Assembly (NCBI RefSeq): GCF_002223055.1
Contig: NZ_NKFL01000004.1
Span: forward strand, 1,984,001 to 2,048,000
Direction: 5' to 3'
DNA: 64,000 bases
Source of the DNA: Burkholderia sp. HI2500
Lineage (GTDB): Bacteria > Pseudomonadota > Gammaproteobacteria > Burkholderiales > Burkholderiaceae
Shown here: one piece after another, positions 983 through 7,323 of the stretch
Position numbering within the stretch: the stretch's first letter is position 1
Layout: each line of letters begins with the position of its first letter
Notes under the pieces: generated by a model
Told to the model about the DNA's origin: nothing
Seen by the model: only the letters and a program-made list of their open reading frames with translations
The model's database searches: none
Translations under genes and position numbers: made by a program

Positions 983-2605
983 ATGTTACGGCTAAGCGAA
1001 ATTAAACTCCCCCTCGACCACCCCGAAAGCGCGCTCGAGGCCGCGATTCGCGCGCGCCTCGCGGAGCTTGGCGTGGCCGCGGACGGGCTCCTCCGTTACA
1101 CCGTGTTCCGCCGTGCGCACGATGCGCGCAAGCGCGCCGACATCAAGCTCACGTATATCGTCGATGTCGAAGTCACGGATGAGGCAGCCGCGATCAAGCG
1201 CCTCGCCGGCAAGCCGCATTGCGGCGTGACGCCCGACATGGCGTACCACTTCGTCACGAAGGCGCCCGAGCACGGCAATTTCCTGCGCCCGGTCGTGATC
1301 GGCATGGGGCCGTGCGGCCTGTTCGCGGGGCTGATCCTCGCGCAGATGGGTTTCCGCCCCATCATCCTCGAACGCGGCAAGGCCGTGCGCGAGCGCACCA
1401 AGGACACCTTCGGCCTGTGGCGCAAAAGCGTGCTCAACCCCGAATCCAACGTGCAGTTCGGCGAAGGCGGTGCCGGGACGTTCTCCGACGGCAAGCTGTA
1501 CAGCCAGATCAAGGATCCGAACCACTATGGCCGCAAGGTGCTGGACGAATTCGTCAAGGCCGGTGCGCCGGACGACATCCTGTATCTGAGCCGGCCGCAC
1601 ATCGGCACGTTCCGCCTCGTCAGCATGGTGGAAAAGATGCGCGCGTCCATCCACGAACTGGGTGGTGAAGTGCGTTTCGAAACGCGGGTCGACGATATCG
1701 AGATCGATCAGGGCAAGGTGCGCTCGCTGAAGCTCTCGAACGGCGAAACGCTGCCGTGCGACCACGTGGTGCTGGCCGTGGGCCACAGCGCGCGCGACAC
1801 CTTCCAGATGCTGCACGATCGCGGCGTCTATATCGAAGCCAAGCCGTTCTCGCTCGGCTTCCGTATCGAACATCCGCAGGGGCTGATCGATCGCAGCCGC
1901 TTCGGCAAGTTCGCAGGCCACAAGCAGCTCGGTGCGGCCGACTACAAGGTCGTCCATCACTGCAGCAATGGCCGCGCCGTCTACAGCTTCTGCATGTGCC
2001 CGGGCGGCACGGTGGTCGCGGCGACCTCCGAGCCGGGCCGCGTGGTCACCAACGGCATGAGCCAGTATTCGCGGGCCGAGCGCAACGCGAATGCGGGCAT
2101 CGTCGTCGGCATCACGCCGGACGACTATCCCGGCGGCCCGCTGGCGGGCATCGCGTTCCAGCGCAAATGGGAAGAGCGCGCGTTCGAACTCGGCGGCGGC
2201 GATTACCGCGCGCCGGGCCAGCTGGTCGGTGATTTCATCGCCGGCCGGCCGTCGACGTCGCTCGGCTCCGTAGAGCCGTCGTACAAGCCGGGCGTGAACC
2301 CGACCGATCTGAGCACCGCGCTGCCGGATTACGTGATCGAAGCGATCCGCGAAGCGCTCCCCGAGATCGACAAGAAGATCGCCGGCTTCGCGATGCACGA
2401 TGCGGTGCTCACCGGTGTCGAGACGCGCACTTCGTCGCCGATCCGGATTCGACGCAAGGACGATTACCAGAGCATGAACGTCGAGGGGCTGTATCCGGCG
2501 GGTGAAGGTGCGGGGTATGCGGGTGGCATCTATTCGGCGGCCATCGACGGGATCGAAGTCGCGCAGGCGGTGGCGCTCAGCATGACGTCGGGGCAAACGG
2601 CCTGA
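983..2605 (+). CDS. NAD(P)/FAD-dependent oxidoreductase of the COG2509 type
   Basis: A 540-residue flavoprotein of the uncharacterised FAD-dependent dehydrogenase family. After an N-terminal domain of about 100 residues typical of this family comes a Rossmann FAD-binding motif GMGPCGLFAG at about residues 106-115 with the closing acidic ERG near 132. A C-terminal GEGAGYAGGI segment matches the second FAD-contacting region. The ATG at 983 was chosen because the family N-terminus begins MLRLSEIKLP; an in-frame upstream start at 848 would add 45 Arg/Pro-rich residues that do not look like protein. The substrate is unknown. It lies upstream of mutS in the same orientation, separated from it by the accessory insert. 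Family assignment is secure, function is not. Confidence 0.9.
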   Translation: MLRLSEIKLPLDHPESALEAAIRARLAELGVAADGLLRYTVFRRAHDARKRADIKLTYIVDVEVTDEAAAIKRLAGKPHCGVTPDMAYHFVTKAPEHGNFLRPVVIGMGPCGLFAGLILAQMGFRPIILERGKAVRERTKDTFGLWRKSVLNPESNVQFGEGGAGTFSDGKLYSQIKDPNHYGRKVLDEFVKAGAPDDILYLSRPHIGTFRLVSMVEKMRASIHELGGEVRFETRVDDIEIDQGKVRSLKLSNGETLPCDHVVLAVGHSARDTFQMLHDRGVYIEAKPFSLGFRIEHPQGLIDRSRFGKFAGHKQLGAADYKVVHHCSNGRAVYSFCMCPGGTVVAATSEPGRVVTNGMSQYSRAERNANAGIVVGITPDDYPGGPLAGIAFQRKWEERAFELGGGDYRAPGQLVGDFIAGRPSTSLGSVEPSYKPGVNPTDLSTALPDYVIEAIREALPEIDKKIAGFAMHDAVLTGVETRTSSPIRIRRKDDYQSMNVEGLYPAGEGAGYAGGIYSAAIDGIEVAQAVALSMTSGQTA

Positions 2606-2730: not shown

Positions 2731-2881
2731 ACCTGGCCGAATGGCGAACTTCGCGCGTGCATGCCGAAGCCACTGGTCAACTCGGGCAACCCAAGCAACA
2801 ACTTCACGCCTGACTTATGACCACGCTGTCGCCCAACGCCTTCGCCGGTCATACTCCAATGATGCAGCAGTACCTGCGCAT
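2731..2881 (+). repeat. Copy A of the mutS upstream region plus first 22 codons
   Basis: This 151-base stretch is closely similar to 4581-4730, the real mutS upstream region and start. It reproduces the leader and an ATG at 2817 followed by codons for [20 protein letters not shown]. Relative to mutS, codon 7 is Asn instead of Asp and two codons differ silently; the upstream part has more changes and one extra base. Similarity stops inside codon 22, and the reading frame meets TGA at 2886-2888, so only a 23-residue peptide could be made. It is a truncated duplicate left at one edge of an insert, not a functional gene. Confidence 0.9.
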
Positions 2882-3000
2882 TATCTGACAAGGAAAAGAT
2901 CAAAAATCTACGCTGCAAGTTACGCCAGCTAAATTGGCAAACGGTCGCACGCGCTACACGCTTCAACATCGACAGCTGGATCATCGATAAACCCAAATAG
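2881..3000 (+). pseudogene. Orphan C-terminal tail of an unknown protein, fused to mutS copy A
   Basis: Directly after the mutS copy breaks off, a different frame is open and reads LSDKEKIKNLRCKLRQLNW and then a further 20 residues ending in SWIIDKPK before TAG at 2998-3000. The stretch is lysine-rich and uses AT-rich codons unlike its neighbours. It has no start codon of its own, so it looks like the last 38 or so codons of a gene whose front was lost when the junction formed. I do not recognise the parent protein. It is followed 150 bases later by a small membrane protein gene, an order reminiscent of displaced toxin C-termini followed by immunity genes; that link is inference only. Confidence 0.4.
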
Positions 3001-3149
3001 GGGCCGACTCGGGTTGCGTGCTATCACCAGTAGCACACGGAGCAAAACAGGGCGACGATATGAGATCGCCTTCGGGGAAGCATCTCAAGTGCGCAGCGAG
3101 AGTACGAGTTACAACCGCCCTTCAGTGTGCAATTGAGGAAAGGCATGAG

Positions 3150-3386
3150 ATGAACGAGAGACTTGCAGCAGGCATCTTTGGGGGAGCGTGCATAATAATT
3201 GGCATCATCAAAGCAGCTCGACCGTCGTTATTTATCGATTATCGTGAGCGCCACCCTTGGATAAACTTGTTTGGATTTTACCCTTTCATTTTCAAAACAA
3301 AATATGCAAGACCGGCCATCGTCGCGAATGGCATCATACTCATCTTAATGGGACTAGCGCTTTTCATATGGTCCCAGCGCAACTAG
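3150..3386 (+). CDS. Small two-helix membrane protein in the mutS insert
   Basis: A 78-residue protein with two hydrophobic segments, about residues 8-26 (containing GGACIIIGIIKAA) and 56-75 (containing ANGIILILMGLALFI), separated by a basic, aromatic loop. The ATG at 3150 follows a GAGGAAAGG Shine-Dalgarno-like stretch at proper spacing; a longer in-frame reading from 3018 lacks such support. Base composition is clearly lower in GC than the flanking core genes, which suggests acquisition. It sits between copy A and copy B of the mutS upstream region. No family was recognised. Its size and position after an orphan protein tail would suit an immunity protein, but a plain hypothetical inner-membrane protein is equally possible. 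Confidence 0.65.
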   Translation: MNERLAAGIFGGACIIIGIIKAARPSLFIDYRERHPWINLFGFYPFIFKTKYARPAIVANGIILILMGLALFIWSQRN

Positions 3387-3422
3387 ATATTTCCACATAG
3401 TTGGCGCTTACCATCAGTATCA

Positions 3423-3490
3423 ACTGGCCAGACGGCGAACTTCGCGCTGTCGCGCCCGGCTCACTAGTAAACTCGGGCAGCCAAAGCAAC
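3423..3490 (+). repeat. Copy B of the mutS upstream region, partial
   Basis: About 68 bases resemble 4582-4645 upstream of mutS: the blocks ACTGGCCAGACGG, GAACTTCGCG, TAGTAAACTCGGGCA and CCAAAGCAAC are in the same order and spacing. Similarity ends before the mutS start codon, so no coding part is included. It splits the insert in two halves. The bases 3491-3604 that follow show no supported gene; a frame ending at TGA 3597-3599 could be another protein tail but is too weak to call. Confidence 0.7.
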
Positions 3491-3604
3491 CTTCCCCCGG
3501 TCACGCAGTTCACCGCAGCACCCGCACCCCAAGACCTACGCTCAGGCTGTTCGGGACCGACACGCTATTGATCGTGCTTCACATGCATTTCGATGTTGAT
3601 TGAC

Positions 3605-4090
3605 TTACTTCTCGGCCGCTGCTTGAATCTCTCGGCAAAAGTCCTTCAGAGTTCCAGGGCATTGTTTGTCCGCATTCCGGGCGATCCGCCGCAACCGTTC
3701 TGCCGGGACTGTAGCGTCAACATGCCGAACAATGAACGTGTGGAAAGCTGGGTCCGACGCGATCATGGGTTCCAACTGCTGAATAGTGCCCCAGTGATCT
3801 GCGAGCAAAAGAGTGTTTGATTCGCTGAACCCTTCCGCGACTGCCCCATCGTCACAGTTTGCGAAATTTCGAAATTGTCGATGCAACTGCTTCCACGACG
3901 TGGCGGCATCAGAAACAGCCTCGGCCCTCCGAGTTTGGTCTGAAGTGCAAACGTTGGGCCCGGCGAGCGCCGTTGACGAGTAGAAAATGGCGACAAGCCA
4001 TAGTGCGAAGTAGCGACGTGTCGTTTGGAAGGTTGCTGCGTCGACCGACGGAAAGTGGGCGCTTTGCGTCTCATGACCAATCCGGTTCAC
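3605..4090 (-). CDS. Exported protein with four cysteines, unknown function
   Basis: A 161-residue protein. After a hydrophilic start of about 25 residues comes RRYFALWLVAIFYSSTALAG, a Sec-type signal sequence with an ALA-G cleavage site near residue 44. The mature part has four cysteines (in PNVC, FANCDD, KQCP and DFCRE), a pattern suited to two disulfides in the periplasm. The start is a GTG at 4088-4090 that overlaps the TGA of the upstream gene by GTGA, so the two genes are translationally coupled. The N-terminal extension in front of the signal is odd, and a shorter non-ATG start may be used. Function is unknown; the family looks like the small secreted proteins found beside toxin/effector genes, but I cannot show this. 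Confidence 0.7.
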   Translation of the reverse strand: MNRIGHETQSAHFPSVDAATFQTTRRYFALWLVAIFYSSTALAGPNVCTSDQTRRAEAVSDAATSWKQLHRQFRNFANCDDGAVAEGFSESNTLLLADHWGTIQQLEPMIASDPAFHTFIVRHVDATVPAERLRRIARNADKQCPGTLKDFCREIQAAAEK

Positions 4091-4320
4091 TCAGACGCCT
4101 CCTCGATAGCCTTTAAAATTATTTGTGGGTCGTCAATTACACTCTCGTCTCCGGCAAAACGCGACATTTCCATATGTCCATCGTCGAAGACGTCGATCTC
4201 GATACGCTCACCTGGCACAGTTATCGAGACCAGAATGGTGTCCGGGCGATGCCGGCCCAATGTATAAAAGAGGCGGCGTTCGTCGAGGCTGCTAAGCAAT
4301 TCGTACAGGGAATGCGCCAT
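4087..4320 (-). CDS. Small acidic cytosolic protein, first gene of a coupled pair
   Basis: A 77-residue acidic protein beginning MAHSLYELLSSLDERR and containing TILVSITVPGERIEIDVFDD, which reads like alternating beta strands after a short helix. A GGAGGA Shine-Dalgarno element lies five bases before the ATG, giving good start support. Its stop overlaps the start of the exported 161-residue protein, so both are probably one transcript on the minus strand. The pair lies inside the insert before mutS and opposes the surrounding genes. I have an impression of similar small proteins of the style VxxxGERxEIDVFxDGxME in many proteobacterial accessory loci, without an established function. Confidence 0.7.
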   Translation of the reverse strand: MAHSLYELLSSLDERRLFYTLGRHRPDTILVSITVPGERIEIDVFDDGHMEMSRFAGDESVIDDPQIILKAIEEASE

Positions 4321-4580
4321 ATGTCCTCCGTCACGGTCAGCAGATCATGACAAACCCGAAAATGACACGGTAGGTCGATTCGTTCACGTAGCGATCTCCG
4401 GTCGACATATCGAGGAAATGGACAGAGTGTCCGATATCCGATCAACGAACCCGTACAGTCACAATCTAGCCTGTCGACCGCAACTGGCGTGTCGGGGTTA
4501 GCACTACGTGGCGGGTCGTGCCTGCAGCGCTACCGCCTGCGAGCTAGGACAGGCCCCCGGGCACTGCCGATTCGTCCTGC

Positions 4581-4665
4581 ACCTGGCCAAACGGCCAACT
4601 TCGCGCCCGCACGTGAAGCCACTGGTAAACTCGGGCAACCAAAGCAACAACTTCACGCCTGACTT
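4581..4665 (+). promoter_or_regulatory. Upstream region of mutS (reference copy of the three repeats)
   Basis: The 85 bases before the mutS ATG carry the blocks AACTTCGCG, GTAAACTCGGGCA and CAAAGCAACAACTTC that also occur in copies A (2731-2881) and B (3423-3490). Conservation in three diverged copies suggests promoter or translation-control content, but no consensus -35/-10 pair is obvious. The remaining part of the gap 4321-4580 shows no supported gene. Confidence 0.5.
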
Positions 4666-7323
4666 ATGACCACGCTGTCGCCCGACGCCTTCGCCGGCCA
4701 TACCCCAATGATGCAGCAGTACCTGCGCATCAAGGCCGACCATCCCGACACGCTTGTCTTCTACCGGATGGGCGACTTCTACGAGCTGTTCTTCGAAGAC
4801 GCGGAGAAAGCCGCACGCCTGCTCGACCTGACCCTCACGCAACGCGGCGCCACCGCCGGCACGCCGATCAAGATGGCCGGCGTACCGCATCACGCGGTCG
4901 AGCAGTATCTTGCGAAGCTCGTGAAGATGGGCGAATCGGTCGCGATCTGCGAGCAGATCGGCGATCCCGCCACGTCGAAGGGCCCCGTCGAGCGCAAGGT
5001 CGTGCGCGTCGTCACGCCCGGCACGCTGACCGATGCCGCGCTGCTGTCCGACAAGAACGACGTCTACCTGCTCGCGATGTGCACGGGCCACAACAAGCGC
5101 GGCGTCGCAGTGAACATCGGCCTTGCATGGCTGAACCTCGCCAGCGGCGCACTGCGGCTCGCCGAAATCGAACCCGACCAGCTCGCGGCCGCGCTCGAAC
5201 GCATCCGGCCGGCCGAGATCCTGACGCCGGACGGCGCGACCGATGCTGTGCCGCCCAGCGCCGGCGCAAGCAAGCGCGTGCCGGCATGGCACTTCGACAT
5301 CGCGTCGGGCACGCAGCGCCTGTGCGACCAGCTCGATGTCGCGAGCCTCGACGGTTTCGGTGCGCATTCGCTCACGAGCGCGTGCGGCGCAGCCGGCGCG
5401 CTGCTGCTCTACGCGGCCGCCACGCAGGGCCAGCAACTGCGGCACGTGCGCAGCCTGAAGGTCGAGAACGAAACGGAGTACATCGGTCTCGATCCGGCCA
5501 CGCGCCGCAACCTCGAACTGACCGAGACGTTGCGCGGCACCGAGTCGCCGACGCTGTATTCGCTGCTCGACACCTGCTGCACGACGATGGGCAGCCGCCT
5601 GCTGCGTCACTGGCTGCATCACCCGCCGCGCGCATCGGTCGCCGCGCAGTCGCGCCAGCAGGCGATCGGCGCACTGCTCGATGCGCCGGCAAACGCAAGC
5701 CTCGATGCGCTGCGCAGCGCGCTGCGCCAGATCGCCGACGTCGAACGGATCACCGGGCGTCTCGCGCTGCTGTCCGCCCGCCCGCGCGACCTGTCGAGCC
5801 TGCGCGACACGTTCGCCGCGCTACCGGCTCTGCGCGAGCGCATCAGCGCGATCGTCGCGAACGCGGACGCACTCACCCGCGTCGACGCAGCACTCGCACC
5901 GCCCGCCGAATGCCTCGATCTGCTGACGAGCGCGATTGCGCCCGAGCCGGCCGCGATGGTGCGCGACGGCGGCGTCATCGCGCGCGGCTACGATGCGGAA
6001 CTCGACGAACTGCGCGACATCTCGGAGAACTGCGGGCAGTTCCTGATCGATCTCGAAGCGCGCGAGCGTACGCGCACCGGCATCGCGAACCTGCGCGTCG
6101 AATACAACAAGGTGCACGGCTTCTACATCGAGGTCACGCGCGGCCAGACCGACAAGGTGCCCGACGATTACCGCCGGCGCCAGACGCTGAAGAACGCCGA
6201 GCGCTACATCACGCCCGAACTGAAGACCTTCGAGGACAAGGCGTTGTCCGCGCAGGAACGCGCACTGGCGCGCGAGCGCGCGCTGTACGACGCGGTGCTG
6301 CAGGCGCTGCTGCCGTTCATCCCGGAGTGCCAGCGCGTCGCATCGGCGCTCGCCGAGCTCGACCTGCTCGCCGCATTCGCCGAACGCGCCCGCGCGCTCG
6401 ACTGGGTCGCACCGACCTTCACCGACGAGATCGGCATTGAAATCGAACAGGGCCGCCACCCGGTCGTCGAAGCGCAGGTCGAACAGTTCATCGCGAACGA
6501 TTGCCGCTTCGGCACCGAGCGCAAGCTGCTGCTGATCACCGGCCCGAACATGGGCGGTAAGTCGACGTTCATGCGGCAGACCGCGTTGATCGCGCTGATG
6601 GCCTACGTGGGCAGCTACGTGCCGGCCAAGTCGGCATGCTTCGGCCCCATCGACCGGATCTTCACACGGATCGGCGCGGCGGACGATCTGGCGGGCGGCC
6701 GCTCGACGTTCATGGTCGAGATGACCGAAGCCGCTGCGATTCTCAACGACGCGACGCCGCAAAGCCTCGTGCTGATGGACGAGATCGGCCGCGGCACGTC
6801 GACGTTCGATGGCCTCGCGCTCGCGTGGGCCATCGCGCGCCACCTGCTGGCGCACAACGCGTGCTACACGCTGTTCGCGACGCACTACTTCGAGCTGACG
6901 CAACTGCCGGCCGAATTCCCTCAAGCGGCCAACGTCCACCTGTCGGCCGTCGAGCACGGCCACGGCATCGTGTTCCTGCACGCGGTCAACGAAGGCCCGG
7001 CCAACCAGAGCTACGGCTTGCAGGTCGCGCAGCTCGCAGGCGTTCCGGCGCCCGTGATCCGCGCCGCGCGCAAGCACCTCGCGTATCTCGAACAGCAGTC
7101 GGCGTCGCAGCACACGCCGCAGCTCGACCTGTTCAGCGCGCCGCCGGCGGCCGCCGACGATCTCGAATGCGCGGACGCGCCGGCGCTGCCCGACACACCG
7201 CATCCGGCGCTCGAAAAACTGCGCGACATCGATCCCGACGATCTCAAGCCGCGCGAGGCGCTCGACCTGCTGTACGAACTGCGCACGCTGGTCCGGTCGC
7301 ACGATGTCGACGGACACGCGTAA
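4666..7323 (+). CDS. mutS: DNA mismatch repair protein MutS
   Basis: An 885-residue MutS, the ATPase that recognises mispaired and short unpaired bases and recruits MutL. The mismatch-reading motif F38-Y39-E40 lies in [10 protein letters not shown], followed by connector, lever/clamp and ATPase domains. The Walker A loop GPNMGGKST is at about residues 626-634 and the Walker B pair D705-E706 is in [16 protein letters not shown]. The C-terminus keeps the tetramer/clamp-interaction region. Length is normal for the family. The start at 4666 is the only one giving the usual N-terminus. Its 3' end overlaps the next gene by 20 bases. Its own promoter and first 22 codons are duplicated upstream, but the gene itself is intact. 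Confidence 0.98.

Follow-up and report, generated by a model that had tools for sequence, protein, structure and literature searches.

Small integrase-less cassettes at the start of Burkholderia mutS are probably moved by mutS-specific phage integrases

Mobile elements that insert into mutS at the codons for HTPMMQQ occur across Beta- and Gammaproteobacteria, where they supply the gene with a new start, and a prophage in mutS of Burkholderia multivorans CF2 excises precisely and without a scar, as described by Chu et al. 2017 (PMC5296598). The SpyCI islands at mutL of Streptococcus pyogenes are likewise phage-like elements at the 5' end of a mismatch-repair gene, whose expression they alter (PMC3430984). 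Here we analyse the mutS locus within a 64,000-nucleotide stretch of Burkholderia sp. HI2500 DNA (the window; genome G000, contig C4), in which two short inserts flanked by copies of the mutS front (its upstream region and first codons) separate mutS from its usual neighbour. Comparison with related genomes makes it likely that these inserts form an array of two non-autonomous cassettes moved in trans by mutS-specific phage integrases.

The cassettes resemble the elements of PMC5296598 in that the same codons are affected, the host start is orphaned and mutS receives a new start and upstream region. Those elements were found through an integrase lying within 300 bp of mutS and measure from 4 kb to more than 150 kb, whereas the cassettes considered here are small, carry no integrase, lie in tandem and have copies on other replicons. 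Because that search started from integrases, units without one would have been missed. SpyCI (PMC3430984) comprises complete phage-like islands between mutS and mutL and no cassette arrays. We found no description of integrase-less arrays at mutS, or of copies away from it, in the open-access literature searched, and a word search of two Burkholderia phage publications did not find mutS in their main text; small cassettes without an integrase, in rows and elsewhere in the genome, look new. Two other kinds of system offer parallels. Integron gene cassettes are small gene units with one recombination site each, standing in tandem arrays; tandem units with a single site are found here too, but the site is a mutS front joined to a phage-type arm, and no integrase gene appears to be fixed beside the Burkholderia arrays. 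Cis-mobilizable elements are integrase-less, depend on the integrase of a neighbour, stack at one site and keep both attL and attR; the apparent dependence and the stacking are alike, while here only one arm is kept.

A first-pass annotation of the window had described three copies of the mutS front around an AT-richer insert, and a 150-bp comparison, profile matches and a whole-genome search all bear this out; no fourth copy was found in the window's whole genome. Copy A (2733..2878, + strand; profile positions 1-142) is an orphan comprising 21 mutS codons and part of codon 22, followed by a stop, so that an open reading frame (ORF) of 23 aa is translated from it (2817..2888, +). It ends in the core ATGATGCAGCAGTACCTGCG (2859..2878, +), the last common bases ahead of the break described below. 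Copy B (3424..3529, +; profile positions 1-113) is a degenerate front between the two cassettes that resembles a divergent off-site type; it is longer than the 3423-3490 first given. The incoming front, now in use (4583..4727, +; profile positions 1-142), runs into an attB-like core (4708..4727, +) inside mutS itself (4666..7323, +), an ORF of 885 aa with full-length tblastn matches in relatives. Copy A and the working front (2731-2881 and 4581-4730) are 91% identical over 150 bp and 96% over 116 bp, and copy B matches the working front at 81% over 67 bp; in the whole-genome search copy A scores an E-value of 3.8e-55 and copy B one of 1.2e-9. The GC content of the two inserts is 48.5% and 55.1%, against 65.7% in the flanking gene for a FAD-dependent protein and 68.4% in mutS. 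This left chromosomal flank (983..2605, +; 540 aa; FAD-depend_C PF21688, E 1.7e-82) is conserved to the left of mutS in 37 loci. The 214 bp between it and copy A fall within the range of insert-free loci (206-283 bp), which indicates that copy A is the resident front and that the present mutS front arrived with the insert.

The incoming front seems to be of foreign origin. The closest match of copy A (95.3%) is the front of an insert-free species, G011, and the working front is nearest (94%) to other species, while the two are 90.7% alike in the same comparison; the proposal that the donor was a related species is thereby supported for the window. Duplication of the mutS front in tandem at the locus, followed by unrelated insertions and involving nothing mobile, is already disfavoured by such comparisons, and we consider it highly improbable. 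Seven genomes are testable, having within one stretch an orphan and a working front that are both native-type; in five of them, among them that of the window, each of the two fronts has a closer counterpart in another genome than in the other front, and the same borders also exist away from mutS. The two remaining pairs are those that duplication would predict, being identical at L089 and mutually nearest at L110. The latter locus belongs to B. stagnalis G059 (L110:10915-13863), where orphan and working front are both of the type MSTMPTDALAGHTP; this pair hints at exchange within the lineage or at gene conversion.

The repeats and their border are real and sharply defined. An alignment of 19 mutS and 44 cassette copies has a single break point, which falls after the codons for HTPMMQQYL plus two bases, that is, at the HTPMMQQ insertion site. 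Common to all copies is ..CCAATGATGCAGCAGTACCTGCG, followed by CATCAAGGC in mutS and typically by CCTTATCTGACAAGG..AAAGCTACGCCAAGACCTACGC in cassettes. Among 78 cassette junctions (one place counted twice, L083 being L128), TACGC occurs at +30 in 49 and at +42 in 39, giving two sites 12 bp apart. Paired arm-type sites at this phage spacing are found in the cassettes, in the window, where the P'-arm-like end of cassette 1 (2879..2930, +; core-profile match) has them at 2908 and 2920, and in phage KS9. On the opposite side of the core, within 400 bp, all 78 junctions together hold CTACGC only eight times and GCGTAG four times. The border of a cassette thus reads front, core, arm, which is half of an attachment site.

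Codon variation points in the same direction. In the last core codons of 39 native mutS genes it is found at the third position only (0.006/0.000/0.188 by codon position), whereas in 34 copies of the cassette-type (MSTQ) front it is lowest there (0.049/0.083/0.025), which argues for constraint on the DNA and not on the protein; codons 2-13 of the MSTQ copies (0.139/0.152/0.236) retain some coding-like pattern further up. Neither the core constraint nor the conserved arm sites would be explained if RecA-dependent recombination between homologous fronts, following DNA uptake, were the only means of spread, with the sharp border simply marking where mutS homology ends. The fronts do share some 142 bp of homologous sequence, as much as 95% alike between species, and many array-bearing genomes lack an integrase; against this, different front classes are just ~72-75% alike, and at the 3' end of an island integrase gene, where 7 of 13 copies have a clear junction, the match to the unit is only ~20-43 bp. 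We regard this route as unlikely.

The locus was compared across 65 genomes of the window's genus, one per species (genus-mates found by name were all Burkholderia), using stretches fetched around mutS and around off-site front copies. The mutS locus was found in all 65, and the 150-bp front matched at least 64, many of them more than once, with many of the listed matches ending at query base 147-148. The interval between the FAD gene and mutS was measured where both lie in one stretch (37 loci): at 206-283 bp it is empty in 12, and at 626-9,959 bp it is filled in 25, in 15 of which a second front or core was detected upstream of mutS. An intact integrase relative adjoins mutS in seven genomes (G008, G014, G024, G029, G036, G056, G057) and a partial or broken one in four (G015, G016, G021, G062); in the remaining 17 genomes the FAD gene is outside the stretch or mutS is split.

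This comparison, which the first-pass annotation had proposed, revealed empty sites and differing inserts among Burkholderia loci, so the same insert is not shared by all relatives. The repeats are dispersed, as they would be if unrelated to mutS, since copies lie on other replicons, yet they derive from the mutS front. The view of the mutS start as an insertion hot spot for short cassettes agrees with relatives that are empty or hold other inserts; as elements at HTPMMQQ are already published (PMC5296598), the hot spot itself is not new. Of the two entries envisaged, each bringing a front, the arrival of DNA with a mutS front holds, but copy B, in which the core and first arm site are missing and one arm site remains at 3536, is a broken border between two cassettes and not a second resident front. 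The earlier interpretation as a whole is partly supported; it offered no mechanism, and the phage-type core and arm sites point to one.

Several of the integrases at mutS belong to prophages. The G008 enzyme (424 aa, Arm-DNA-bind_3 and Phage_integrase domains) lies with an island whose proteins match phage baseplate, tape-measure, tail-sheath, portal and head-protease families, and the island is, judged by its proteins, a contractile-tailed prophage. The large mutS islands are accordingly taken as prophages, and the alternative that they are conjugative elements was ruled out by these structural families. Islands in G014, G024, G029 and G056 have much DNA in common with that of G008, those in G021 and G036 less; the G057 element has no 300-bp match to the G008 island and so is not established as a prophage. 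The arm motif is present in several copies upstream of the prophage integrase gene beside mutS, and the last front before the island is degenerate in four of five island loci viewed. The prophages supply a MutS start of their own, MDKDVREITDTKQQLTEAAFSNHTP and similar (MDKDV.. type).

A related integrase is encoded by phage KS9 (FJ982340), 57.8% identical to the mutS-prophage enzyme. KS9 carries two arm sites 12 bp apart near its other end (GCGTAGCTTTCAGCGTAG) and starts with a different core, which we read as the 3' end of ribA; its attachment region is therefore alike in integrase and arm pair and differs in having its own core. Integrases 54.5-57% identical to the mutS one (L113-L120, L122) are encoded on other replicons or contigs and have this arm motif too, and by our reading six of these nine run into the 3' end of ribA and two into its last codons, L119 doing neither. 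The phage records contained no DNA match to the cassette end.

Fronts fall into classes by location. Orphans left of mutS arrays resemble native mutS, and borders within arrays or off site are mostly of the MSTQ type. The terminal front is in frame with mutS, so that the element would supply the start codon and upstream region. None of the 55 mutS genes first examined had an MSTQ front, in a survey of MutS N-termini that set L160 and L162 aside; the idea that mutS never bears a cassette-type front was overturned by G063, whose full-length MutS begins with one, as would be expected from integration of an MSTQ cassette at mutS. In G058 mutS is split (L109, L175; G058:C1:138881-147290), with ~5.7 kb between residues ~10-80 and residues 49-885, and next to the small piece lies a 587-aa protein that has an arm-type integrase domain; this genome is possibly that of a natural mutator.

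The cassettes, ~0.5-5 kb long, stand in tandem arrays, at mutS as well as on other replicons, with one recombination site per unit. One of 704-705 bp is 93.6-96.9% identical in four contexts, at mutS in G027 (B. paludis) and in G032 (C3), G008 (C3) and G001 (C38), and the alignment spans the unit between its junctions (699 of 704 bp for one pair). The flanks of the four, up to 3 kb (~1.1 kb on the right in G001, where the contig ends), have nothing of 100 bp or more in common except for a 1-kb stretch shared by G008 and G032 in different order. Off-site arrays in several species have common flanks and different content; a search for an empty site at the chromosome-3 array gave no clean one, most matches falling in the part of the flank further away.

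This recurrence bears on whether each cassette is instead the decayed remnant of a separate mutS prophage, which lost its genes and integrase and left one end with cargo. Prophages and partial integrases do stand at mutS, and an integrase fragment (pieces 77% and 79% identical) lies inside an off-site array. However, the prophage front (MDKDV..) differs from the mutS-like or MSTQ fronts of cassettes, and with the same cassette found between the same ends in four contexts, decayed units would still need to move; we think such an origin improbable.

For the preferred reading, movement by phage integrases in trans, the following scheme can be drawn. A cassette would consist of cargo, a mutS-derived front ending in the 20-bp core, and a single arm of phage type that bears two arm sites for the integrase. 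The core of a circular cassette would be recombined, by a tyrosine integrase of the mutS-prophage family, with the core in mutS or with one at the border of a cassette already present; the former front would be displaced as an orphan (copy A in the window), and mutS restored by the front that the cassette brings. The sequences themselves show the break point and the arm sites, loci with and without inserts, foreign fronts, the recurrence of one cassette in several contexts and, at the same codon, prophages with an integrase; the circular intermediate and the action of the integrase in trans we infer from them. Lambda integrase offers a precedent in recombining two attL-type sites.

Several observations weigh against this scheme. 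No TACGC was found within 60 bp in 20 of the 78 junctions. The arm motif lies on one side of the core only, attL and attR at both ends of a cassette were not found, and without the other arm the attachment sites are incomplete. Copy B lacks a core, and two of the seven testable front pairs are identical or mutually nearest. A cassette-type front on mutS in one genome alone means that such cassettes seldom end beside the gene. Of the 65 genomes, 22 have integrase relatives at E<=1e-30; none was found at this threshold in the window's genome, and most genomes with arrays have none. The window insert has no integrase of its own beside mutS, the nearest integrase-domain match on the contig being ~65 kb away, and the sole integrase relative in 53 cassette intervals (tblastn, two integrases) is a fragment in L061. 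As regards the comparison with integrons, a six-genome search for the general integrase domain, in which the integron integrase was not sought, placed the nearest match at least ~170 kb from the chromosome-3 arrays of G008, G032 and G035; one match lay 4 kb away in G003 and one was adjacent in G005.

The strict core-plus-arm pattern was found in 20 of 398 genomes of the family, namely 20 of 61 in the window's genus and none of 337 in 24 other genera, and in 17 stretches of a named species collection, all Burkholderia. A looser DNA search added five plasmid-filed records of B. pyrrocinia, B. arboris and B. vietnamiensis, four of which were inspected. The pattern also occurs in five viral contigs, and three of the four compared match the mutS prophage as well. 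More tentatively, and with somewhat less than even confidence, we suggest that Burkholderia may possess an integron-like exchange network built on half a phage attachment site, in which mutS is linked with genomic islands and with arrays carried by other chromosomes and by plasmids. mutS-phage integrases would act in trans and phage particles may carry cassettes, delivering defence and other genes while swapping the promoter and first residues of MutS.

The cassette view offers an explanation for enzyme-less accessory units that gather in rows at a conserved gene, and the mutS core with two arm sites provides a simple signature for finding them. A cassette landing beside mutS would replace its control region and first residues, and could affect the mutation rate. 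The cargo, named from the best 25 family matches among 66 ORFs selected out of 118 found mechanically, and so a set of examples and not a census, includes Septu PtuA and PtuB (PADLOC, E 5.7e-163 and 2.5e-106), an AriA/AriB-like pair (E 2.7e-23 and 1e-12), AbiTii (E 3.3e-34), a chloramphenicol-phosphotransferase-like kinase, MFS and dicarboxylate transporters and a GGDEF protein. The Septu pair and other phage-defence-like cargo give the cassettes a bearing on how defence genes move. AriA/AriB-like, Septu and AAA ATPase genes lie in cassettes between the orphan front and the mutS prophage at L073, L075 and L079 (G014, G024, G056). In G044 a cassette (L066:4308-5524) encodes a TP_methylase-family protein after a 122-aa protein, a pair that may resemble split borosin peptide systems.

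A conserved island integrase of 402 aa (L184-L194, L150, L153) has a stop codon overlapping mutS-core-like sequence, often with a cassette junction. Its gene was found in 13 copies, of which two are truncated, spread over 11 genomes and two viral contigs, with a clear junction at the 3' end in seven and a weak one in one. Since it lies beside some arrays, it was considered as a dedicated cassette enzyme and rejected, as full-length copies occur without a cassette (L185, L187, L189) and the 3' end is core-like; the gene is better regarded as a secondary target.

A single Rfam match was far under threshold. Within the window, none of the three insert proteins matches a Pfam family over the cut-off. 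Cassette 1 encodes an 82-aa product (3138..3386, +; part of the ORF 3018-3386) that is probably a small membrane protein. Cassette 2 encodes a 161-aa protein (3605..4090, - strand), which matched nothing in Pfam, PADLOC or NCBIfam, and a 77-aa protein (4087..4320, -), which has an 89.6% relative (tblastn) at mutS of B. arboris G005.

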